Source: Croceivirga sp. (GTDB lineage Bacteria; Bacteroidota; Bacteroidia; Flavobacteriales; Flavobacteriaceae). From it: DNA of 64,000 nt. The notes beneath the pieces were generated by a model. That model had not been told where the DNA came from. It worked only from the letters and a program-made list of their open reading frames with translations, and searched no databases. The stretch is from positions 186,001 through 250,000 of the forward strand of contig JANQSA010000048.1 in the NCBI GenBank assembly GCA_028284285.1, in the 5' to 3' direction. This document shows positions 52,847-64,000 of this stretch, piece by piece (the stretch's first letter is position 1; the number at the start of each line of letters is the position of its first letter). The translations under genes were made by a program, and so were the position numbers.

Positions 52847-54265
52847 TCAATTGCCAATCAGAGCATAGATGCTATTAGCATATTCTCTAATATTTTGATC
52901 TTTAAGAATTCTTTCTCGAAGATCCATTTTAGCCACGTTGAATTCAAAAGGATATGACTTTTCTTTTAAGCAATATAGATAGTACGCCAATCTTGCACCA
53001 TAATCTTCAAAATACGCCTCTACCTCAAAACCATCTTCACTTACTTTTTTAATAGTGTCCTCCAATTGTGAAAAAGAATTTACCTTAAAGGTTAACCCCG
53101 TATCGTTGTAAAACACATTACCAAGGACTATAGAAGGTTTTTTGAAGAAAAGCGACTCTAAGCCAACCGTGCCAGATAAATTTATAGTCCCAATTGAATT
53201 TTTGATTAACTCAAAAGTGTTTATTTTATAGCTGACCAACCTAATGTTTCCATACTTTTTCAGCTCTTTATAAAAACTCATACCATGCTGTCCCAAAGCA
53301 CTTCTATGTTCTTTCACGTATAGGTAAGTGTCAGGTGGAATTAGCTTGCTTATATTAATAATTGCCGCCTTTTGATCTACATAAAATGGCGCCAAAATTA
53401 ACGTACTTGCCTCTGGCTGCATATGTAATGGAAAAACAAAATATCTATTCTTTAAATTTATTTCATCAAAAACTTTATTTTGAACCAAGTTGATTTTTTT
53501 AGCCGTGATTATTTTTTTTAATCTTATAATCCCCAATTGAATTGGCGACTTAGTAAACAAATCATATTTATGTTTCCCCTTTGAGATGTACTCAATAGAG
53601 CGTTTAAAAAACTCTTGAACAAATACTCTTCTTAAGGTAAATGCATTTATAGCATTTTTCATAAATGCCGGTTGTACAGGCCTATTGATAAAACTACGGA
53701 TCGGTTCATACATAAAATCCTTTACTTTATCCCTCTCAAACTCGTTGTATAAAGATTTGACCTCATCGAAGGAATGTGAAATTCCAAAAGAGGTTGCACT
53801 TCGACTTTCAATTCGAGTTATATAATATGAAATGTGTTTTATTTTATATCTATTACATACTTCATAAGCAACCAAATTGTATGTATAGGCAGTTCCTGTG
53901 GTAAAATAATGGGTGATTGTATCATTGAAAATCTCTTCAAAAAACAAATAAGTATATACTAACATTTTTCTTTGAAAATCTCTCTTCTTTCCAACTAAGT
54001 TTCGGTCACAAGCAAATACATTAAAATTAGAATACTCCTTTGATATTCGTCTCAGCTCTTTTTCAATATCAATGCCCTTACCATCCAATTCGTCAAAATA
54101 ATGTAACCTGTTGATACAATTAATTTCTTTTAAATCGTTGTGCCAACGATTACCTTCAGATATGCCCAACACTTTTGAAGAATCAAGCTTTTTTTGCGTA
54201 AAAAGCAATCTTAAAGCCCTAGCTGATAATGGAGCCTCATCATTTATTAAATCAAAAATTATCAT
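52847..54265 (-). CDS. KpsS/KpsC-like capsule transferase, possible nonulosonic acid transferase
   Basis: 472 residues of the capsule-polysaccharide-synthesis fold: FVFPLHMQPEASTLILAPFYVDQ, PPDTYLYVKEHRSALGQ and INLSGTVGLESLFFKKPSIVLGNVFYN match the KpsS/KpsC blocks that bind CMP-Kdo. KpsS-like proteins in Acinetobacter capsule loci serve as CMP-nonulosonate transferases, so here it may use CMP-pseudaminate made by the adjacent pathway. That is inference. It overlaps the flippase by 4 bp. No signal peptide. Confidence 0.78.
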   Translation of the reverse strand: MIIFDLINDEAPLSARALRLLFTQKKLDSSKVLGISEGNRWHNDLKEINCINRLHYFDELDGKGIDIEKELRRISKEYSNFNVFACDRNLVGKKRDFQRKMLVYTYLFFEEIFNDTITHYFTTGTAYTYNLVAYEVCNRYKIKHISYYITRIESRSATSFGISHSFDEVKSLYNEFERDKVKDFMYEPIRSFINRPVQPAFMKNAINAFTLRRVFVQEFFKRSIEYISKGKHKYDLFTKSPIQLGIIRLKKIITAKKINLVQNKVFDEINLKNRYFVFPLHMQPEASTLILAPFYVDQKAAIINISKLIPPDTYLYVKEHRSALGQHGMSFYKELKKYGNIRLVSYKINTFELIKNSIGTINLSGTVGLESLFFKKPSIVLGNVFYNDTGLTFKVNSFSQLEDTIKKVSEDGFEVEAYFEDYGARLAYYLYCLKEKSYPFEFNVAKMDLRERILKDQNIREYANSIYALIGN

Positions 54266-55494
54266 TTCATTTTGATTTCATTCCTACTACGAAGGAGTTT
54301 AAATATAAATATTAGTAAAAAAGAGCTTAATGTTGCCAATGCGGCCCCAAAAATATCGTATTTAGGAATCAATAGAAAGTTCAAAACAACGTTCAAAAAC
54401 ATTCCTGCTAACGAAATCCATAAAATTTCCTTGTCTCTGTTTTTAATGTACAAATCGTAGTGGAAAACATTTGAAATTATTAGAAAAAAAACACCTCCTA
54501 AAAGAATGTAAAAGACGTATATGTGCTCAACTATATCTCTCTTGTCAAAAACTTTTAAGATTATTGGTCCAAAAACTAAAAATATTACAATGAAAAAAAG
54601 TGATGTCACTAATAATTGTTTTAAAAAAACCTTCTTAAGTGTATTGTATTTTTCAAATTCGCCGGAAAATTTTATCATTTTGGGATAAATAACCATAGTA
54701 ATAGCGCTGAATGTAAAGACCTCTATCGCATTTGTGAATTGCGAATATGCTGTGTAGACCCCAACCAATTTTTTTCCATAAAAAAAATCTATCAAAAAGC
54801 GATCGGATAATTGTATTACTTGAAAGGATAAAGAGGAAAGGAAAAAAACACCTGCTACCCTAATTCCATTCATAATCCACTTGAAATTAGGAGGGCGGAA
54901 TTCATCTTTAACTATCCCTACTTTTTTAGATAACAAAGCACCAAAAATAAATACTGAAAGCCATGAAAAAAAAGTCCAATATGTAATATACTTCATCAAA
55001 TCTATTTTGTTTTGAAAAACAAAAAAATCAACGAAAACAATCCATATCCATAATCCCGATCTTATGAATAACATAATATTGGCCTTTACAGAGCTTTCAA
55101 GTGTTGTAAAAAGCCTATAAAATTCTTGTCCTAAGTGCTCTGAAATCAAGAGTAGCATAAAAACCCACATATATTCCATAGGAATAAACCCCATCTGAAC
55201 AACTATAAAAAGAGATAGGGGCACAATGAGGACATATCCTGCCAAATGAAACAGCAATTGGTCTCTTACCTTATTGATATAATGCTCTTTTGAACCTATA
55301 ATTTCCCTTGCATTAAAAACGTAAAAGTCAAATCCTATTAAATAAATCAGCAACACCAATGTGGTTGAGATAATTCCAAAAATTCCTAGATTCACTTCAT
55401 CCACAGAATACTTTCCAATAAAGACTATAAAGAGAAATTTTGAAAGCAAAGTAAGCCCTCTAAAGAAAATATTTAAAAAGGAAGTTTTGCTCAA
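54262..55494 (-). CDS. Wzx-like oligosaccharide flippase
   Basis: 410 residues with about 12 membrane helices (IGLLYLIGFDFYVFNAREIIGSKEHYI-like N-terminus and FGAALATLSSFLLIFIFKLL near the end). This is the MOP-type flippase expected for a Wzy-dependent pathway, exporting the lipid-linked repeat unit. The start is TTG at 55494. It overlaps the KpsS-like gene by 4 bp. A different flippase lies at 13-14.6 kb. Confidence 0.87.
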   Translation of the reverse strand: MSKTSFLNIFFRGLTLLSKFLFIVFIGKYSVDEVNLGIFGIISTTLVLLIYLIGFDFYVFNAREIIGSKEHYINKVRDQLLFHLAGYVLIVPLSLFIVVQMGFIPMEYMWVFMLLLISEHLGQEFYRLFTTLESSVKANIMLFIRSGLWIWIVFVDFFVFQNKIDLMKYITYWTFFSWLSVFIFGALLSKKVGIVKDEFRPPNFKWIMNGIRVAGVFFLSSLSFQVIQLSDRFLIDFFYGKKLVGVYTAYSQFTNAIEVFTFSAITMVIYPKMIKFSGEFEKYNTLKKVFLKQLLVTSLFFIVIFLVFGPIILKVFDKRDIVEHIYVFYILLGGVFFLIISNVFHYDLYIKNRDKEILWISLAGMFLNVVLNFLLIPKYDIFGAALATLSSFLLIFIFKLLRSRNEIKMK

Positions 55495-55535
55495 TACAAC
55501 AAAAGAATTATTTCAATTATCTGTTCAATCAAAAG

Positions 55536-56579
55536 TTATGATTGTATCATATCGGGTTTTAAAGGAGTCCCCTTTTGCACATCTACACCAAATCTTTTGC
55601 CCAAAATATCTTTATGGTGTTTTGGGTGCATTCCGTAACCAGGTCTTATTGAGCGTATATTATTTGTGGTTAGGAAATCTCCCTTTTTAACATCATCTAC
55701 AACAAAAAGTGATCTTGCAAATTTTCTGTTTTTTTCAACTTTTTCTGAAATTTCATATGACACTTTTCCTAACAGTTTTTCTGTGTTTCGAACAGCATTG
55801 ACCATTTCTGTGAATTCTCTTTCATCCAAAGAAAAATCGGCATCAGGACCTCCTATAGATTTATCCATGATAAAGTGTTTTTCAATAATCTTTGCCCCTA
55901 GTGTGGTAGCAACAACAGGTGCCAACCATCCATATGTATGATCACTAAATCCTACTTCAGCCCCAAATCTTTTATTCAAATCTCTGATGGTATTCAAGTT
56001 TGCCAGCTCTAATGGAGCGGGGTATGATGAGGTGCATTTAAGAAGAACAATATCATGATTGCCTTCTTTTCGACAGGTTTCAACAGCAAGTGAAATATCC
56101 TCTTCTTTTGCAATTCCCGTTGAAATTATTATGGGCTTCCCTTTTGAGGCAGCGTAGGCTATTAAAGGTATATCTTGAATTTCAAATGATGCTATTTTAT
56201 ATGCTGGAACATCAAATTCTTCTAAAAAATCAACGGCAGTAATGTCAAAAGGTGACGAAAAACATATAAGTCCTTCTTCTTTCGCCACCCTAAAAAGTTC
56301 ACTATGCCATTCCCATGGTGTATAGGCCTCGCCATATAGCTCGTAAAGGGTCTTACCATCCCAAAGCGTACCTTCATTGATTTGAAAGTATCTATTTTTA
56401 ACATCAATAGTCATAGTATCTGGGGTGTATGTTTGTAGTTTTATGGCATCTGCTCCCGTTCTTTTAGCTGCACGAATGGTTTGAATCGCGGTATCTAAGC
56501 TTCCATTATGGTTTGCAGACAATTCAGCTATAATAAAACAAGAGTTGCTGCCACCTATTAATTTGTTCCCTATTTTCAT
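55536..56579 (-). CDS. pseI: Pseudaminic acid synthase
   Basis: 347 residues. The NeuB-type TIM barrel (1-280) shows FIIAELSANHNGSLDTAIQTI, KLQTYTPDTMT and EKHFIMDKSIGGPDADFSLDE; the SAF antifreeze-like domain (about 285-347) has RSLFVVDDVKKGDFLTTNNIRSIRPGYGMHPK. The GYGMHPK end and the IGGPDADFS block favour PseI over NeuB and LegI. It condenses phosphoenolpyruvate with the 2,4-diamido-trideoxyaltrose sugar to give Pse. It lies 6 bases after PIG-L. Confidence 0.93.
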   Translation of the reverse strand: MKIGNKLIGGSNSCFIIAELSANHNGSLDTAIQTIRAAKRTGADAIKLQTYTPDTMTIDVKNRYFQINEGTLWDGKTLYELYGEAYTPWEWHSELFRVAKEEGLICFSSPFDITAVDFLEEFDVPAYKIASFEIQDIPLIAYAASKGKPIIISTGIAKEEDISLAVETCRKEGNHDIVLLKCTSSYPAPLELANLNTIRDLNKRFGAEVGFSDHTYGWLAPVVATTLGAKIIEKHFIMDKSIGGPDADFSLDEREFTEMVNAVRNTEKLLGKVSYEISEKVEKNRKFARSLFVVDDVKKGDFLTTNNIRSIRPGYGMHPKHHKDILGKRFGVDVQKGTPLKPDMIQS

Positions 56580-56585
56580 ATATTT

Positions 56586-57296
56586 TTAGTTTATAGATCT
56601 TACTATCATAAATGCTTCCGCATAACTCTTGCCAATAGAAATCCCCCTCTGTTGTGCTAAAATAGTTAATGCTTCCGGTGATCTTGGATGTGGAAACTTC
56701 CTTTTCTCAAACTCGTAGCTCTCCATCCCCCTGATTTTGGCTTTAATGTTCTGTTCAGATATCTCAACATACATGTTTGGTACAAAATGCTTTGGGTCAG
56801 TAGATGCCCTCCATTCTGTTCCTGACGGTGTCTCAAAGGTAATTATTGTCTTAACCCTTTCATGTGCCATAGGACGGGTAGCTGTAATTACTGCCTCAAA
56901 AGTACGTTGATGATCTATGTTGACATCACCTCCATGATGGGTAAAAATTACTTCTGGATCAAATTCATTCTTTTCTTCTTCTATTACTTTAATAATATCA
57001 AGTAGATGTATAGAATCAAATCTGTTGTCCGGAAAATCATAAATTCCTACCGATTGATATCCAATTTCATTTCTTGCCTGTTCAATGTTTGCCTTATGCT
57101 TTTTCAAATCCTCTTCCCATAGTTTTGTATCTCTGTTATTTGATCGAGATGTAATTCCTTCTCCCAAAATAACTGCTCTTATTGTGCAATCGAATTCGGT
57201 TATCAACCGATTCATACTAGCGCCAAGTCCTAATAATTCATCATCAGGATGAGCTACGACCACTAAAATTTTTTTACTTCTTAATGACTCTAACAT
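56586..57296 (-). CDS. PIG-L-type deacetylase
   Basis: 236 residues, LmbE fold. The zinc-binding HPDDE is at residues 16-20 (VVVAHPDDELLG) and the further metal ligand His is in VNIDHQRTF (H129). No signal peptide, so it is cytosolic and should act on a small N-acetylated precursor. Set between a formyltransferase-like gene and pseI, it may deacetylate a nonulosonic intermediate before re-acylation. This is inference. It overlaps the upstream gene by 23 bp. Confidence 0.9.
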   Translation of the reverse strand: MLESLRSKKILVVVAHPDDELLGLGASMNRLITEFDCTIRAVILGEGITSRSNNRDTKLWEEDLKKHKANIEQARNEIGYQSVGIYDFPDNRFDSIHLLDIIKVIEEEKNEFDPEVIFTHHGGDVNIDHQRTFEAVITATRPMAHERVKTIITFETPSGTEWRASTDPKHFVPNMYVEISEQNIKAKIRGMESYEFEKRKFPHPRSPEALTILAQQRGISIGKSYAEAFMIVRSIN

Positions 57297-57954
57297 CTGC
57301 TATTATAGTTTTATCAGCTTTAAGGGATGCTCTAGAAAACTCAAATTTAAAATGCTCATTTTCAAAGAAAGCCTTTGGATAGCCTTCAGCATCCAACATT
57401 CTAACATGGTTAAAGAAAACTTTGATATCCGTAATTCCGTCAAGAGTGCTCATTTTTTGTGTTCTTCTTTTGAAAATAGTAATTCTGCCCTCTTGATCCT
57501 TAGGTTCAATTTTTTTCTTTATTATATCTATAATCATCTCAGATATTGTATCATTGGCCCTCATAAAAATTTCCTCAGCCGTTCCGAAAAGGCTTAGCGG
57601 TCCTTTAATGTAAATAGGTCCTGCATCAAGCTCTTTGACAACGCGGATAGCAGAAATCCTTGTGTCAGAATGCCCACTTTTAATAAGGTTTTGCAGAGGG
57701 CTCCCTCCTCTACCATATGGTAGGTCGGTCATGTGAAAAACAATACATTCATATTTTTCGAAAACATGTTCAGGTATTATATATGACCAGTGAGGTATAA
57801 AAATTTTTTTTGGTTGTATTTTATCTAATTTATCCAATACAAAATCTTCTTTTTTGTTTATCAAAATAAATTGATCATTCAAGAGAACCTTTTGAAGTTT
57901 TATGGGCAAATCAGCATTCCATTGCTTTTCTGAAAGAACTATATAATTACTCAT
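57274..57954 (-). CDS. Formyltransferase-like protein A
   Basis: 226 residues with the formyltetrahydrofolate-dependent transferase fold. The active-site block is VFHMTDLPYGRGGSPLQNLI (H74) and the catalytic Asp is in ELDAGPIY (D110). The usual N-x-H pair is V72-F-H74, so the Asn of the classic Asn-His-Asp triad is missing. The core is followed by a C-terminal 45-residue part. It is a likely sugar-amine formyltransferase or a related acyl transferase; the lost Asn leaves this open. It overlaps gene B by 8 bp and PIG-L by 23 bp. Confidence 0.8.
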   Translation of the reverse strand: MSNYIVLSEKQWNADLPIKLQKVLLNDQFILINKKEDFVLDKLDKIQPKKIFIPHWSYIIPEHVFEKYECIVFHMTDLPYGRGGSPLQNLIKSGHSDTRISAIRVVKELDAGPIYIKGPLSLFGTAEEIFMRANDTISEMIIDIIKKKIEPKDQEGRITIFKRRTQKMSTLDGITDIKVFFNHVRMLDAEGYPKAFFENEHFKFEFSRASLKADKTIIADVRVIKK

Positions 57955-58585
57955 CTGCTTTAAAAATTTTTAAAACATACTTAATCCTGTCTTTAACAAA
58001 ATATGCAGGGTATCTTTCATTATCACACACCCTTAAAAGATTAAACTGTTTATTTATTGATTGTTCTATATCCAATTGACTGTCTTTCGGGGTTCTTCTA
58101 TTATAAAAACTTTCTTCCCCAGATTGTGGTGTTCCAATTATATTGGGATATGTTTCTAAAAATTTTAGAATCAAATTTTTGGTTAAAAAGCCCTGTTTTT
58201 CTTTTATTTCAGAAAGAAGTTCATGACCTTCAAAAACAATGAAGTCTTGAAAGTAAATTTGACCTGCATCTACCTTTTCTGCAGCTTCAAATAATGTGAT
58301 TGGAATCCGGTTTTTACCTTCTAAAATTTGCCAAGTAATAGGAGACCATCCTTTTCCTTTTGGAAGATCACTCTCGTGAATGACTAAATTGTGTTTGTTT
58401 CGCTGTAATTTTTTGAAGATTTTTTCGCATGATAAAAGAAAAAGCAAATCCCCTGATTCAACTTCTGAGTGGTTATGAATCAACTTTACTTCAAAATCAA
58501 ATTTTTTCCTGATTTCCTTTACAAGTTCAATGGCATAAGGTACTATCCATGATTCTTTATTATCAACCAATATTTGGACTTTCAT
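57947..58585 (-). CDS. Formyltransferase-like protein B
   Basis: 212 residues, a paralogue of the next gene. The catalytic loop VIHESDLPKGKGWSPITWQIL carries H70; the Asp is in EKVDAGQIY (D106). As in protein A, the residue two before His is Val (V68), not Asn. The two have the same DLPxGxGxSP layout but differ widely elsewhere, so they are old duplicates rather than a recent copy. It overlaps pseG by 4 bp. Cytosolic; it may formylate a free amine of a Pse precursor. Confidence 0.8.
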   Translation of the reverse strand: MKVQILVDNKESWIVPYAIELVKEIRKKFDFEVKLIHNHSEVESGDLLFLLSCEKIFKKLQRNKHNLVIHESDLPKGKGWSPITWQILEGKNRIPITLFEAAEKVDAGQIYFQDFIVFEGHELLSEIKEKQGFLTKNLILKFLETYPNIIGTPQSGEESFYNRRTPKDSQLDIEQSINKQFNLLRVCDNERYPAYFVKDRIKYVLKIFKADE

Positions 58586-59604
58586 TGTTTTAATTCTTGT
58601 AATAAGTTCATAAACCTTTTGGGTTGCTGCCCATCAAATGATTTTTTTAGCCTATCTATTTTTTGCTTATGCTGTGACATAGGTGTCTTGATGATTTTTT
58701 GTATAGCATCATAAAAGTCTCCTTCTCCATATTTGGTAAAATCTGCTCCATCATAAATTACTTCTTCCTTTTTTAATCCATTATAAATGTTTCTTTGGTT
58801 GTCAATAAAGTAACCACTAAAAACAATTATTGGGATAGAGCACACTTCAAAAGCAATAGTGCTTGACGGCACAATTGCCAGTTGACATTTTCGCATTAGT
58901 GAAATCATGTTCTTCTCACTCAAATTTCTGTAAAGACTTATTTTTGATTCATTGTGCCTATGTAATGCAATTATTTTTTCATGCTTATATGCCCCACCTA
59001 AAACCACGTGAATTCTATCAATCTCTCTAATGTTTTTTATCTCTGAGGCAACTTTATAAGTAAGATCATGAAAATCTGCTCCGCCGAAACACAGAAATAT
59101 TTGACTAATTTTTCCTATTTGAATATTGTTCTTATTCTGTTCATAAAAAGATAATCTTAGAATAGCATAATCCAAGCCAAGAGCAAACTTGGTGTAAGGC
59201 TCACATTTGAAGTTATTTTGGGTCACATAAGGAGAGTGATTTACAACAATATCTGCATACATATATTCCGTTGCCATATCGTCTACATAAATTAGATTAT
59301 ACCCAAAATCTTTTATCTTTTTTTGATAAATGGAATTGAAAAAATATCCGTCAGCAATAACAATATATTCACTAGGATTAAATTTCTTCTTTAATAATTC
59401 TGGCTCATTCTCAACCTCTACGTTTTCAGGTATTAGGACTATTTTATATTCATTGGGAATAAACTCAGTATTGGAAGTCGTCTTGGTGACAAAACAACAT
59501 TCATATTTTTCTGAGTAAATTTTAAATAGCGCTAAAAGCCTATACATATGGCCTAAGCCAATATCTTTGTTTCCATCAGCTCTAAATACTATTTTTTTAT
59601 CCAT
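58582..59604 (-). CDS. pseG: UDP-diacetamido-trideoxyaltrose hydrolase
   Basis: 340 residues of GT-B-like fold. N-terminal FRADGNKDIGLGHMYR carries the catalytic His (H19) and the Gly-rich loop of PseG, which removes UDP from 2,4-diacetamido-2,4,6-trideoxy-altrose. The C-terminal nucleotide-binding half shows CFGGADFHDLTYKVA and LAIVPSSTIAFEVCSI. Overlaps the formyltransferase B gene by 4 bp. Full length. Confidence 0.94.
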   Translation of the reverse strand: MDKKIVFRADGNKDIGLGHMYRLLALFKIYSEKYECCFVTKTTSNTEFIPNEYKIVLIPENVEVENEPELLKKKFNPSEYIVIADGYFFNSIYQKKIKDFGYNLIYVDDMATEYMYADIVVNHSPYVTQNNFKCEPYTKFALGLDYAILRLSFYEQNKNNIQIGKISQIFLCFGGADFHDLTYKVASEIKNIREIDRIHVVLGGAYKHEKIIALHRHNESKISLYRNLSEKNMISLMRKCQLAIVPSSTIAFEVCSIPIIVFSGYFIDNQRNIYNGLKKEEVIYDGADFTKYGEGDFYDAIQKIIKTPMSQHKQKIDRLKKSFDGQQPKRFMNLLQELKQ

Positions 59605-59637
59605 CAGTAGATGTCAAATTTTTATGTTTCAACAGCT

Positions 59638-60324
59638 TCATCCCAGTTTTGCAACAGCTCTTGCAAAATCTAAATCATCAAAGTCATCTATATCAACTGC
59701 GGCTTTCCAATCTATATCGAACATGGTATAATCATCACCATAAAAAGTCTTGCTCTTTTTGAACTCTTCTACCTCTGCTATCCATATTGCTCCAGTTGGG
59801 CAATGAAGCTCCTCAAGGTCTTGAGATCTCATTTTAATTTCCTTTCTATATAGAGGAGATGCTCTTTGAGTGTTTTTATCAATTCTATGTGCCCACCAAG
59901 GGTTCATCCAACCATATCTAAAGCTGCTTATTTGAAACTTATTGTTATTTCTTATAAAGTTCAACAAGGACAGTTTTATTTCCCTAGCCTTTCTTAATGG
60001 GCAGTTTGGCATAAGCATTACAACTATATCATATCTAAAGCCAAGTTTTTCAAGTGTCTCATAAACAGCAAGGCTCACCGGAGATTGGTCATCTGCGTAT
60101 TTTTCTCTCATAAAAGGCACCTTTGCCCCATATTCTTTGCAGGTCTGTGCAATTTCTTTATCATCGGTGCTAATAACAATGTCTGAAAAAATCTTTGTTT
60201 TTTTTGCTTCCTCAATGGTCCAAGCAATCATAGGTTTGCCCTCAAAATCAATTATATTTTTTTTTGGTATCCGTTTACTCCCTCCCCGAGCGGGAATAAT
60301 GGCCACTATTTTTTTTTCTACCAT
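59638..60324 (-). CDS. pseF: Pseudaminate cytidylyltransferase
   Basis: 228 residues of the acylneuraminate cytidylyltransferase family. AIIPARGGSKRIPKKNI binds CTP, and VISTDDKEIAQTCKEYGAKVPFMRE, MLMPNCPLRKAREIKLSL and DIDWKAAVDIDDFDDLDFA are typical. It forms CMP-Pse, the activated donor. I start at the ATG at 60324 to avoid a longer overlap with the SDR gene; 60333 is also possible. Confidence 0.93.
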   Translation of the reverse strand: MVEKKIVAIIPARGGSKRIPKKNIIDFEGKPMIAWTIEEAKKTKIFSDIVISTDDKEIAQTCKEYGAKVPFMREKYADDQSPVSLAVYETLEKLGFRYDIVVMLMPNCPLRKAREIKLSLLNFIRNNNKFQISSFRYGWMNPWWAHRIDKNTQRASPLYRKEIKMRSQDLEELHCPTGAIWIAEVEEFKKSKTFYGDDYTMFDIDWKAAVDIDDFDDLDFARAVAKLG

Positions 60325-61097
60325 ATTGTCCATCCGCTATCATAAATTAAATTATGCCCGGTCATCCCTATTGAACCATCAGATACTAAAAACTCCACAG
60401 GGTTTGCCACTTCAACAGGTTCCAACATTCTATTTTGTGGATTAAGTGAACTATACTTTTTAATAAATTCATCAGGTGTTCTTCCCTTAACGCCTCCGAA
60501 GGATACACTGTTTACCCGTATATTTTTATCCGAAAGTCTTACCGCTAATTCTTTGGTAAGGTGAATTTGGGATGCTTTTGAAATGCCGTATTGAATTGGA
60601 GATTGTTGTGCAAAATCATCATACAAATAAGGAGTTGGTGCTACTACCCCATAAATGGAGGAAACAAAAATTATGTTTTTCAAAGCTTTTCCAAAATCAG
60701 ACTTTAAGATATTCATTGTCAATTCATATGGAATTGCTACCCCAAGTTTAAACTCGCCCATAATATTTTCAATAGAGCTTGTTCCGTCTTCCCCGATTGC
60801 AAGCATATCGAGAGATCTTGCATTATAAATTATTACTTCAGGATATATCTTTTCTTTCTTAAAAAAGTCAATGAAATTCTCAACATAAGTATTTTTCAAA
60901 AAGTCGACTTCTAACAAAAGAAGATTGTTTTCAAGACCATCTAAATCCAGTTCTTTGATCAATTGTTTTCTTTTGTCTTTGTTCCGTGTGGTAATAATTA
61001 TCCTATGCCCTTTTTTCAAAAGGCGTAAAACCAATTGCTTTCCTACTAGGCCTGTACCGCCTGTAATAACTATTGTTTTAAGCTTACTTATCTCCAT
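60318..61097 (-). CDS. SDR-family oxidoreductase
   Basis: 259-residue classic SDR. The cofactor loop is TGGTGLVGKQL; catalytic Ser is in IIFVSSIYGVV and the Tyr-Lys pair in QYGISKASQIHL. The C-terminus TGHNLIYDSGWTIW is the usual FabG-like end. It overlaps pseF by 7 bp and the Gfo/Idh gene by 14 bp. The reaction is unknown, but its position inside the pathway suggests it reduces or oxidises a sugar or acyl donor of the nonulosonic acid. Confidence 0.87.
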   Translation of the reverse strand: MEISKLKTIVITGGTGLVGKQLVLRLLKKGHRIIITTRNKDKRKQLIKELDLDGLENNLLLLEVDFLKNTYVENFIDFFKKEKIYPEVIIYNARSLDMLAIGEDGTSSIENIMGEFKLGVAIPYELTMNILKSDFGKALKNIIFVSSIYGVVAPTPYLYDDFAQQSPIQYGISKASQIHLTKELAVRLSDKNIRVNSVSFGGVKGRTPDEFIKKYSSLNPQNRMLEPVEVANPVEFLVSDGSIGMTGHNLIYDSGWTIW

Positions 61098-61983
61098 TCT
61101 CTATTATTCGTACAATTTCCAGCACATCACTTTCTGATAAATTAGCTTTTCTTTTATGAACCAACTGAATAAAATAACGCAAAGACTCTCGAAAAGCATA
61201 AAATGTGTCTTCAAAATGGATTTCCCTATATGTTTCTTTTCCTTGTAACGTGATTTGTAAAGGGGATTTAACAGTTCCCGTAACTGTAAAAATAGCGGTC
61301 AGGCTAGCCCATCTGACCAATACTTTTACAATGTCTTTATCGTTGAACAATTTCCTTATTTCCAACAAACTGCCACGTTCAGGAAACATTTTAACAACTG
61401 GCTCTATGATGTGAATTGCATATTTTTTCCAATCTTTCATAATTGAAGCTTCAACATAACTATATTCATCACTCCCAAAAATAAAATCAAACTCTTTTGC
61501 AAATCTCATAGCAGAGCATGTAAAGATTATTTGATTATTTTTCTTTCCCATATTTAAAATCTCTTTTGCTTCCTTATAGGAAAAGGCCAAAGGCTTATCT
61601 ATGAAAATTGGAATTCCTGCTTCTATGAAAGGTCTAACAAATTCTAAATGGTTTTCAGCATCATCCCTTGCCAGCAGAACTGCATCAACAAAATTGATTA
61701 AATCTTCTTTTTTTTTGACTACATTGTTTATTTTGGAAAAACTGGCGACTTCGTTGGAGATATCAAGCGATTGGGTCCAAATATGTGTTACCTCAGCTAA
61801 ATCTGTTAGAAAAGAATCTGGGTACTTTTCTTTCTCTAGATATTCTGGGATTACTTTAAAAGGACAATGAAAATTGTTGTCAAAACCATTAAATATGGCA
61901 CTCCATGAGTATGGGTGACCATTACCCTTGCTTAATCCTATCACACCCAATTTTAACTTTTCATCAGTCTTTATTGTTTCCAT
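61084..61983 (-). CDS. Gfo/Idh/MocA-family oxidoreductase
   Basis: 299 residues: a Rossmann N-terminus (KLGVIGLSKGNGHPYSWSA; the second Gly of the usual GxGxxG is a Leu-Ser-type variation) with the diagnostic PIFIDKPLAFSYKEAKEI block holding the EKP-like Lys, and a beta-sheet C-terminal domain. The overall start is slightly atypical, so NAD binding should be confirmed. It lies between the SDR and the aldo/keto reductase, overlapping both. Sugar oxidation is likely; substrate unknown. Confidence 0.82.
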   Translation of the reverse strand: METIKTDEKLKLGVIGLSKGNGHPYSWSAIFNGFDNNFHCPFKVIPEYLEKEKYPDSFLTDLAEVTHIWTQSLDISNEVASFSKINNVVKKKEDLINFVDAVLLARDDAENHLEFVRPFIEAGIPIFIDKPLAFSYKEAKEILNMGKKNNQIIFTCSAMRFAKEFDFIFGSDEYSYVEASIMKDWKKYAIHIIEPVVKMFPERGSLLEIRKLFNDKDIVKVLVRWASLTAIFTVTGTVKSPLQITLQGKETYREIHFEDTFYAFRESLRYFIQLVHKRKANLSESDVLEIVRIIENGDK

Positions 61984-62855
61984 TTCGAAGGATTTAAAAG
62001 CTCACTGTTTTTTACTTCAAACCTGTCTATTTTAGTAAATAATGAAGAATCATAGTTTCGGTTTATTGCCTGAATATTACTTTCCAATTGAGTAATCGAA
62101 TCAATCCCTATTAAAACCTTATCAATATAATTTTTCGACAGCGGATAGTTAATCGCCAATTGATGTATGGAGATTAAATTGGATTTACAAAAATCCCTAA
62201 TCTTCTTAAGTTCATCTTTTAACTCCAATATAGTACCACTCAATGTGTCAATATCTTTAAAAAACAAACCTTGTAAGAATGACGATCTAGTGTGAATTTC
62301 CAAACCCCTTTTTTTTGTCTTATCCAAAATCGAAAATCTTTGACTATGATTGTCCAACAAGTTGAAGGGTAGTTGTACCAAATCAATACAATCGTAAGTA
62401 AGTAACTCTTCCAACTGCATGTTAGAATAAACGGAGACACCTATTTTGTTCACTTTCCCCGTTGATTTGAGTTTTGTTATTTGTTCGGCAAAAAAGTCAT
62501 AGTTGATTCTAAAATCATCGAAAGAATGGAACATGTAACCATATAATCTAGGCGTTTTAAATTGTTTTAAGAGTTTGTCAACTCTCTCGACCAATTGGGG
62601 TTTCGCTTCGTTTTCGTAGTTTGAATACTTAGTAATAATTTCAAAACGATTGACTGAGTTTAAGTGATATTCACTAATAATTTTATGCGAATCACCATAT
62701 GCTTCAGCAGTATCTAAGATGCCTATCCCTAGACTAAAAGCTTTATCTAAAATTTGAAAAACATCTTCTTTACTTGGTCTTCCTTTGGTATTGTTGATAC
62801 CATAGTTGGTTCCAAATTGTACTGTTCCAAGTATAATTTTATTAACTTTCGACAA
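61971..62855 (-). CDS. Aldo/keto reductase of the pseudaminic cluster
   Basis: 294 residues from a TTG at 62855 (MSKVNKIILGTVQFGTNYG). The catalytic tetrad is D48 (LDTAEAYG), Y53, K76 (IITKYS) and H110 (MFHSFDDF), so it should be active. It belongs to the AKR branch often found in nonulosonic and sugar clusters. The start is uncertain: TTG codons at 62879 and 62873 and a GTG at 62861 are also in frame, but cause up to 38 bp overlap with pseC. Substrate not identified. Confidence 0.83.
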   Translation of the reverse strand: MSKVNKIILGTVQFGTNYGINNTKGRPSKEDVFQILDKAFSLGIGILDTAEAYGDSHKIISEYHLNSVNRFEIITKYSNYENEAKPQLVERVDKLLKQFKTPRLYGYMFHSFDDFRINYDFFAEQITKLKSTGKVNKIGVSVYSNMQLEELLTYDCIDLVQLPFNLLDNHSQRFSILDKTKKRGLEIHTRSSFLQGLFFKDIDTLSGTILELKDELKKIRDFCKSNLISIHQLAINYPLSKNYIDKVLIGIDSITQLESNIQAINRNYDSSLFTKIDRFEVKNSELLNPSKWKQ

Positions 62856-63993
62856 ATGCACATACTTTTTCAATGACAAAATCTTGCTCTTCTTGATTTA
62901 AAGTAGGATACATTGGGAGACTAATGCACCTGTCATAATATTTTTCTGAATTACTTAAATCAGCTTCTGAATATCCGATTTTTTCATAATAAGGTAATTT
63001 ATGCACAGGTATATAATGAATTTGTGCATATATTTTATTCGTCCTAAGGTATTCGTATAGACCTGCTCTATTCTCTACTTCGACAACAAACAAATGATGT
63101 GCATTGTATGAATTCTTGGGTAAGAATTGATAATTAATCTTGTTTTTAAATGCTTCCTTATATCTAGATGCTATTTCATTCCTTTTTTTGACACCGGCTA
63201 CATTTTTTTTGAGCTGTACAATTCCAAGCGCAGACTGTATATCTGTAAGCCGATAATTAAACCCAAGCTCTCGCATTTCATAATACCATCCTCCATGATT
63301 TTGAGCCATGTTTTCTTTTGTTATACCGTGGGTTCTTAACATGGCTATTTTTTTAAACAGTTTTTCGGAATTCGTAGTTACCATTCCTCCCTCACCACAA
63401 GCAATATGTTTCACAGGATGAAACGAAAAGACCCCAATATCAGCATAGTGCGCATTTCCACACATTTGCTTATTCCCAGAAGAGTCGGTAAAGTATCCCC
63501 CAGGTGCATGGCAGGCGTCTTCTATAATCCATAAATTGAACTCATCGGCTAGCTTTCTAAACTCTTCCATATTAACCGGAAGACCGGCAAAATCAACCGG
63601 GATTATTCCTTTAAAAAACCCTTTAGGTTTACTTTCTAAAAGTTCCCTGGTTTTTTCCAATGACAACAGATACGTGTTAGGGTCAATATCTGCAAACCAT
63701 ACTTCTGCGCCCACATATCTGGCACAATTGGCAGAGGCGGCAAATGTAATTGGACTAGTTATAATTCGTTCGCCCTTTTTCAATCCCAGGGCAATTACTC
63801 CAAGATGCAGGCCAGCTGTTGCATTATTTACAGCAATTGCATATCTAGCACCTACATACTTAGCGAAGGCTTCTTCAAATTCCGAAATCTTAGGACCTTG
63901 GGTTAAATAATCTGCTTTAAGTACAGAAACTACCGCCTCGATGTCGGAATCATCGATATATTGCCTCCCATAGGGAATAGGTTTCATTTTCAT
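62842..63993 (-). CDS. pseC: UDP-4-amino-trideoxyaltrose aminotransferase
   Basis: 383-residue PLP enzyme of the DegT family. The PLP lysine is K195 in FSFHPVKHIACGEGG; other blocks are LTQGPKISEFEEAFAKYVGA, IVEDACHAPGGYF-like IIEDACHAPGG, and RLTDIQSALG. It adds the 4-amino group in the Pse pathway, after PseB. It starts 7 bases from the right edge. PseB should be upstream, outside the window. Confidence 0.93.
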   Translation of the reverse strand: MKMKPIPYGRQYIDDSDIEAVVSVLKADYLTQGPKISEFEEAFAKYVGARYAIAVNNATAGLHLGVIALGLKKGERIITSPITFAASANCARYVGAEVWFADIDPNTYLLSLEKTRELLESKPKGFFKGIIPVDFAGLPVNMEEFRKLADEFNLWIIEDACHAPGGYFTDSSGNKQMCGNAHYADIGVFSFHPVKHIACGEGGMVTTNSEKLFKKIAMLRTHGITKENMAQNHGGWYYEMRELGFNYRLTDIQSALGIVQLKKNVAGVKKRNEIASRYKEAFKNKINYQFLPKNSYNAHHLFVVEVENRAGLYEYLRTNKIYAQIHYIPVHKLPYYEKIGYSEADLSNSEKYYDRCISLPMYPTLNQEEQDFVIEKVCAFVES

Positions 63994-64000
63994 ATTGATC

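Follow-up and report, generated by a model that had tools for sequence, protein, structure and literature searches.

The N-acyl groups of bacterial nonulosonic acids vary, and the genes responsible for them are often unsettled. The 64,000-nucleotide stretch of a Croceivirga sp. genome analyzed here (the window, from contig JANQSA010000048.1) carries on its minus strand a pseudaminic acid operon in which two formyltransferase-like genes, FT1 and FT2, and a PIG-L deacetylase gene stand between pseG and pseI. FT1 occupies the slot of the acetyltransferase gene pseH. We propose that FT1, on the one hand, and FT2 with PIG-L, on the other, are two modules that acylate both amino groups of a pseudaminate-type acid, giving a di-N-formyl CMP product. 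We lean slightly toward this proposal.

Gene content of the operon

The genes run in the order pseB, pseC, aldo/keto reductase, Gfo/Idh-type oxidoreductase, short-chain dehydrogenase/reductase (SDR), pseF, pseG, FT1, FT2, PIG-L, pseI and a gene that, from a reading of its sequence, we take to be flippase-like. All of them overlap or lie at most 41 nt apart (Table 1). The overlaps between pseG and FT1 (4 nt), FT1 and FT2 (8 nt), and FT2 and PIG-L (23 nt) make FT1, FT2 and PIG-L look like real, coupled genes. The first-pass annotation of this DNA had placed these three genes where profile searches recovered them, and had listed pseC, pseF, pseG and pseI as present. PseB, PseC, PseG and PseI all exceeded their curated NCBIfam cut-offs; PseF fell under its own. 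The HPDDE motif reported earlier for PIG-L is intact. The scores of this protein against the BshB1, BshB2 and MshB equivalogs were far under the cut-offs (28.4 vs 182.5; 26.8 vs 195.25; 12.6 vs 224.35), and its assignment as BshB was ruled out.

The reported absence of PseH from the operon extends to the genome. With the PseH profile (TIGR03585), no protein of the window genome (99.92% complete) exceeded the cut-off of 93.1 bits, and the best of four weak matches reached 47 bits. This best match is a GNAT adjoining a gene that, from its sequence, we take to be argininosuccinate-lyase-like.

Table 1. Features of the pseudaminic acid operon, with profile scores in bits
Feature	Position	Strand	Evidence
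pseI, pseudaminic acid synthase	55536..56579	-	TIGR03586, 511.3 vs cut-off 340.25
PIG-L deacetylase	56586..57296	-	PF02585, 68 vs cut-off 28.2; HPDDE intact
FT2, second formyltransferase-like protein, PIG-L partner	57274..57954	-	PF21553, 70.8 vs cut-off 27; V72-F-H74-M-T-D, D110
FT1, GART-fold formyltransferase-like protein, PseH slot	57947..58585	-	PF00551, 30.4 vs cut-off 26.1; V68-I-H70-E71, D106
pseG, UDP-sugar hydrolase	58582..59604	-	TIGR03590, 173.2 vs cut-off 153.55
pseF-like cytidylyltransferase, below equivalog cut-off	59638..60333	-	TIGR03584, 175.4 vs cut-off 205.7
SDR oxidoreductase, distantly PtmA-like	60318..61097	-	NF050062, 110.6 vs cut-off 350
Gfo/Idh-type oxidoreductase	61084..61983	-	PF01408, 41.3
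Aldo/keto reductase	61971..62879	-	PF00248, 109.5
pseC, aminotransferase	62842..63993	-	TIGR03588, 465.4 vs cut-off 423.5
pseB	L079 2001-3017, just beyond the window, directly upstream of the operon		493.4 vs cut-off 407.75

Folds and active sites of FT1 and FT2

FT1 exceeded the cut-off of the Formyl_trans_N family (PF00551), and FT2 fell just under it (26.0 bits). The predicted models of FT1 and FT2 had pLDDT values of 96.6 and 95.5, respectively. In the PDB, the FT1 model matched 1zgh (template modeling (TM) score of 0.82), ArnA (0.74) and VioF (0.72-0.74), together with other sugar N-formyltransferases and Fmt. These matches agree with the fold expected from the first-pass annotation. FT2 matched 1zgh by sequence with 209 bits across nearly its whole length and shares the motif VFHMTDLP with it. 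The entry 1zgh, from Clostridium thermocellum, was deposited as a methionyl-tRNA formyltransferase. Because of this close relationship, the Fmt name is probably wrong and 1zgh is probably a nonulosonate enzyme.

Sugar N-formyltransferases use formyltetrahydrofolate (formyl-THF) as the donor and an Asn-His-Asp triad. Both window proteins carry the H-x3-LPxGxGxSP loop and the DAG block, and both have Val two residues before the catalytic His (position -2), as had been noted. V68, H70 and D106 were invariant in an alignment of 67 FT1 sequences; the catalytic His (H74) and Asp (D110) were invariant in the FT2 alignment. Position -2 was Val in all 67 FT1 sequences and Val, Ile, Cys or Leu in all 20 FT2 sequences, and never Asn. 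A wider set of FT1 sequences (n = 104) gave 101 Val, 2 Ile and 1 Phe at this position, with a search pattern that permitted hydrophobic letters alone there; one of the 105 loci (L037, a truncated frame) failed the pattern. ArnA, VioF, FdtF and WbkC share the fold and the catalytic His and Asp with FT1 and FT2 and act on nucleoside diphosphate (NDP)-amino-sugars. Unlike FT1 and FT2, VioF and FdtF have Asn at -2 in the alignments, and so, we presume, do ArnA and WbkC.

Other formyltransferase-like proteins had Asn (17), Gly (5) or Met (1) at -2 among 23 sequences; 27 had been read, and four of them (L088, L090, L093 and L100) turned out to be FT2 and were left out. A test of FT1 and FT2 as one clade had counted these four among the other proteins, and its p of 0.044 is disregarded. 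Judged from these sequences, loss of the Asn has occurred outside FT1 and FT2 as well, and we rejected the idea that it is peculiar to them. The earlier proposal of a distinct subfamily stands insofar as both proteins belong to Asn-less subfamilies; the missing Asn does not by itself mark them, given the Gly and Met types elsewhere. In an unrooted tree with 24 FT1 sequences, FT1 formed a single clade (support 100/100). FT1 and FT2 shared one side of a branch (100/98), with Fmt and the Gly-type proteins on the other; long branches join there, and one long-branched protein (L086) grouped with FT2.

The missing triad Asn weighs against our proposal, since the donor may not be formyl-THF. FT1 and FT2 could be acyltransferases of the same fold that use another donor, for example of an acetyl or other small group, and the final acyl would then differ. 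The uniformly hydrophobic position -2 favors this alternative. Both proteins nevertheless retain the fold, the LP loop and the invariant His and Asp, the nearest structures are formyl-THF enzymes, and the Asn is missing from other formyltransferase-like proteins too. We consider another donor unlikely. Based on the fold and the relatives of FT1 and FT2, formyl would be the most likely group.

PDB entries 6ci2, 6ci4, 6ci5 and 6edk bear the molecule name PseJ, formyltransferase. We take PseJ to be the formyltransferase of pseudaminic acid synthesis, and FT1 would then share its fold, presumably its pathway and probably its step. The two are remote in sequence (E 0.014 with the single sequence and 4e-9 with the FT1 profile), and PseJ has no known link to FT2 or PIG-L. 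With the FT1 profile, PseJ ranked behind 1zgh, Fmt, 5uij (FdtF), ArnA, VioF and a TDP-3-aminoquinovose formyltransferase. Since six other kinds rank above PseJ, FT1 was rejected as its orthologue.

The PseH slot and the FT2-PIG-L module

PseB and PseC make UDP-2-acetamido-4-amino-2,4,6-trideoxy-altrose, and PseG, PseI and PseF act afterwards. PseH, whose donor is acetyl-CoA, shares with FT1 the operon slot and the presumed step; PseH itself has the unrelated GNAT fold. We collected 75 FT1 loci as a first set (74 from one scan of species genomes, plus the window) and 32 further loci as a hold-out, 28 of them from Campylobacterota. The 74 loci span Bacteroidota, Bacillota, Pseudomonadota, Campylobacterota, cyanobacteria, Verrucomicrobiota, candidate phyla and archaea. 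A PseI-type synthase lay in the fetched stretch of 54 of the 75, and several of the remaining ones are short contigs. The recovery of 74 FT1 loci in one scan, with a PseI-type synthase in 54 of the 75, argues that the company of FT1 and pse genes is not due to chance.

For comparison, five Flavobacteriaceae loci (L200-L204) with FT2 (diverged in L204) and no FT1 match were fetched. Three of them (L200, L202 and L203) are pse operons with a GNAT at the FT1 position: L200 has it as a separate protein, L202 as a fusion with PseG and L203 as a fusion with FT2. These slot GNATs are orthologous, with 42-49% identity to each other. L202 keeps the gene order of the window throughout, with the GNAT instead of FT1. 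In L204 a GNAT directly precedes PIG-L; the fetched stretch of L201 contains no more than a partial GNAT, at its far edge. With the L200 GNAT as the query, no match came up in the window genome, an empty result that alone says little. Eight loci have an FT1-PseG fusion, which suits an enzyme acting immediately ahead of PseG, and 11 have a fusion of FT1 with a PseH-type GNAT, one of these loci being a near-copy.

Several results weigh against a simple exchange of FT1 for PseH. The two slot GNATs scored with the PseH profile stayed under its cut-off, at 43 bits, and that of L203 is weakly like the window-genome GNAT near the argininosuccinate-lyase-like gene (24% identity, 32 bits). Of the 74 loci, 50 had their genomes searched for PseH; five of these genomes hold one over the cut-off, which in four cases lies beside FT1 or is fused to it. 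A PseH-type GNAT coexists with FT1 in 7 of the 75 first-set loci and in 27 of the 32 hold-out loci, the latter mostly Campylobacterota; all three hold-out GNATs that were scored exceed the PseH cut-off. The idea that FT1 replaces PseH everywhere was rejected on account of the PseH-type GNATs beside or fused to it. The two enzymes are alternatives among the window's kin; in Campylobacterota they are partners or competitors.

FT2 is linked to PIG-L by gene neighborhood. Of the 20 first-set loci with FT2, 19 also have PIG-L (p 2e-8), and the exception (L019) lies near a contig start; in 15 of the 20, the two genes are directly adjacent. PIG-L also accompanied FT2 in all six further non-duplicate FT2 loci (L163, L164, L172, L181, L187 and L194) and in all five FT1-less ones. 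PIG-L occurred without FT2 in 13 first-set loci, and 43 of the 75 FT1 loci had no PIG-L. FT1 and FT2 with PIG-L are two separable modules, and the latter pair stays together regardless of which enzyme, FT1 or a GNAT, fills the slot. The first-pass annotation had all three genes replacing PseH. That view stands for FT1, in the PseH slot; FT2 and PIG-L make up a separate module, found alongside a slot GNAT too.

Among the 13 PIG-L loci without FT2, four hold an ATP-grasp-type gene (L006, L011, L015 and L024) and three a methyltransferase-type gene (L008, L016 and L020), with one representative annotated in each case. In L018, a larger formyltransferase-like gene, a further Gly type, adjoins PIG-L. 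The remaining five have no such substitute gene. These ATP-grasp, methyltransferase or larger formyltransferase-like genes may put other groups on the freed amine.

An alternative has FT1 making 7-N-formyl pseudaminic acid (Pse5Ac7Fo), and PIG-L and FT2 serving another sugar of the same polysaccharide. 7-Formamido pseudaminic acid is described from Pseudoalteromonas distincta in the accessible parts of PMC3210612 and PMC7281560. The window genome has five PIG-L family matches over the cut-off, and the many FT1 loci without PIG-L also fit this alternative. Against it, the PIG-L and FT2 genes overlap and sit inside the operon, within the stretch from pseG to pseI, and this layout recurs across several phyla. 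We regard a separate sugar as very unlikely.

FT1 is rare in the whole-genome samples of the window's family (three clear orthologues with at least 47% identity among 397 genomes), of its phylum (5 matches among 395 genomes) and of the Compostibacillus phylum (3 among 398). It is commoner in Campylobacterota, with 35 matches among 347 genomes, a few of them partial or interrupted.

Related arrangements have been described. Geobacillus flagellin glycosylation islands have Pse C, F, G and I but lack PseH, and some of them also carry formyltransferase genes (PMC5109656, in part). Compared by that description, they differ from the window: the accessible part mentions no deacetylase, and its authors do not place the formyltransferases at the PseH step. 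In the psa/psb variants of Acinetobacter and Shigella, the acyltransferase is exchanged and the next enzyme adapted, as in the pathway of the window; there, that single acylation step differs in the accessible part of PMC3628348, and the word formyl is absent from the paper. N-formyl at N7 of pseudaminic acid and N5 of legionaminic acid, lactoyl at N5 of pseudaminic acid, PseJ and the Geobacillus islands without PseH are already known. Our literature search turned up no paper that has PIG-L together with a formyltransferase in the making of pseudaminic acid; it covered subscription papers thinly, so absence from print is not shown. As far as these searches show, the two Asn-less subfamilies, the way they divide into one enzyme for the PseH slot and one that partners PIG-L, and the link of PIG-L to Glu71 of FT1 are new.

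Glu71 of FT1 and the proposed acylation route

Directly after the catalytic His of FT1, 34 of the 67 aligned sequences have Glu; the other 33 have Ala, Pro, Ser or Gly. Glu71 tracked PIG-L: 30 loci had Glu with PIG-L, 4 Glu without, 1 another residue with and 32 another residue without (p 1.4e-13). In a scan of alignment columns against PIG-L, Glu71 was the best of 209 FT1 columns (8.7e-16; next FT1 column, 1.5e-8). The best columns elsewhere reached 4e-5 in PseC, 1e-4 in PseG and about 2e-3 in PseB, PseF and PseI. The scan used 64 FT1, 31 PseB, 46 PseC, 30 PseF, 34 PseG and 49 PseI sequences and dropped three truncated loci that would count against Glu71. In the same order of classes, the joint set of 104 loci gave 33, 6, 5 and 60, and its 75 loci flanked by at least 5 kb in each direction gave 24, 1, 4 and 46. 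The hold-out alone gave 3, 0, 4 and 25 (p 0.007), with all three Glu loci having PIG-L.

Other observations weigh against reading Glu71 as a sign of PIG-L action. Four of the 29 hold-out loci with another residue also have PIG-L (L172, L181, L187 and L194, all from Campylobacterota and all with Ala), and L035 breaks the rule as well. Six Glu-type loci have no PIG-L, and of these L076 alone has at least 5 kb on both sides. In trees with the Glu71 column masked, Glu and PIG-L changed 13 times each in the first set; with the joint set the counts were 9 and 12. Tree-controlled pairs were not significant (median p 0.125-0.25), with 4 to 7 well-supported independent pairs. The six first-set pairs gave 3.4-4.2 agreeing and 0.5 disagreeing; in a second test on the joint set, 3.3 of 4 and 3.7 of 7 pairs agreed and none disagreed. 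Glu71 was not upheld as an invariable PIG-L marker, given the exceptions in the hold-out. L172, L181, L187 and L194 all carry a PseH-type GNAT and FT2, and PseH may serve the PIG-L product in them, a post hoc explanation. The tracking of PIG-L by Glu71 is suggestive of an FT1 that meets the PIG-L product, with PIG-L acting first.

In the pathway, N5 of the final acid derives from the C2 nitrogen, and N7 from the C4 nitrogen. In our proposal, PseB and PseC would supply the 2-acetamido-4-amino UDP-sugar. FT1, in place of PseH, would formylate the 4-amino group (the future N7). PIG-L would strip the 2-N-acetyl group, probably before FT1 acts and at the UDP-sugar stage, and FT2 would formylate the freed amine (the future N5). 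Deacetylation by PIG-L followed by re-acylation had been suggested before, and we keep it as the best reading. PseG, PseI and PseF would finish the CMP-activated di-N-formyl acid, perhaps altered further by the aldo/keto reductase, Gfo/Idh and SDR trio. These three may epimerize or oxidize the acid, and therefore the product need not have the plain pseudaminic configuration. L005 (Polaribacter aestuariivivens) and L007 (Maribacter polysaccharolyticus), which share the FT1-FT2-PIG-L module with the window, do not have the trio. Besides the N7-formyl acid of Pseudoalteromonas, 5-N-lactoyl pseudaminic acid in Psychrobacter marincola and 5-N-formyl legionaminic acid in Halorubrum are described in the accessible parts of PMC7281560 and PMC6137143, respectively. 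These compounds lend our proposal chemical precedent.

PIG-L could instead act later, on CMP-Pse or the polymer. An alternative of this kind has PIG-L and FT2 acting after nonulosonate formation, on CMP-Pse or Pse, with FT1 alone working on the UDP-sugar. PIG-L adjoins pseI in the window and several relatives (e.g., L005, L007, L009, L021, L040 and L070), as late action would suggest. Yet the active-site residue that tracks PIG-L belongs to FT1, an early enzyme; PseI and PseF have no such column (with fewer sequences); and L203 encodes FT2 and the slot GNAT as a single fusion protein. We consider late action fairly unlikely.

A broader and doubtful extension of our proposal, which we put forward tentatively, is a portable N-acylation code. 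Asn-less FT1 and FT2 with PIG-L would yield 5,7-di-N-formyl pseudaminate via a free 2,4-diamino UDP-sugar, Glu or Ala beside the FT1 His would read PIG-L action, the modules would swap with slot GNATs, and poly-G switches in Campylobacterota would choose the acyl group. If our proposal is right, FT1, FT2, PIG-L and perhaps Glu71 would be gene markers predicting N5 and N7 formylation across phyla. It would also mean a formyltransferase chemistry that dispenses with the usual Asn, and would bring a likely renaming of the Fmt-labelled PDB entry and a candidate phase-variable acyl switch.

Runs of at least eight G or C occurred inside the acyltransferase cassette of 24 of the 28 Campylobacterota loci, with 41 runs in 51 kb of cassette and 19 in 412 kb outside. 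Nine of 77 other loci had such a run (9 runs in 129 kb of cassette, 14 in 1,125 kb outside). In Campylobacterota, the runs are found close to the termini of PseH-type genes and in the gap that separates FT1 from a second GNAT. Run lengths were 8-16 in L168-L196 and L199 (Campylobacterota) and in L164, lying between the PseH-type GNAT, FT1, FT2/PIG-L and the second GNAT. L164, from the window's phylum, has a C14 run at the junction of a PseG-GNAT fusion and FT1. Positions 54001-64000 of the window hold no run of six or more G or C. The pattern of tracts suggests that poly-G/C slippage alternates acyl groups, a candidate phase-variable N-acyl switch; such alternation would explain PseH and FT1 side by side in Campylobacterota.

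FT1 may also serve another 4-amino sugar. In L042, L046 and L065, an Ala-type FT1 follows a DegT-type aminotransferase, with a nucleotidyltransferase nearby (with a CBS domain in L042, the one member annotated) and no PseI within the fetched stretch. The DegT-type aminotransferase before FT1 fits an NDP-4-amino-sugar substrate.

Ten FT1 loci (L020, L023, L025, L035, L039, L048, L049, L051, L061 and L076), none of them with detectable PseG, hold a gene for a xylose-isomerase-like TIM barrel (PF01261 in the one member annotated). All 41 PseG-bearing FT1 loci lacked a PF01261-type gene (among pseC loci, 7 vs 44, p 6e-5), and the TIM barrel is a possible non-homologous PseG replacement. The PseF of the window is of a divergent type that co-occurs with the Gfo-type gene. 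In the first set, a pseF match of more than 150 bits was found in just three loci (the window, L025 and L036), and the same three are the sole loci with the Gfo gene. L202 repeats the combination of divergent PseF and Gfo gene.

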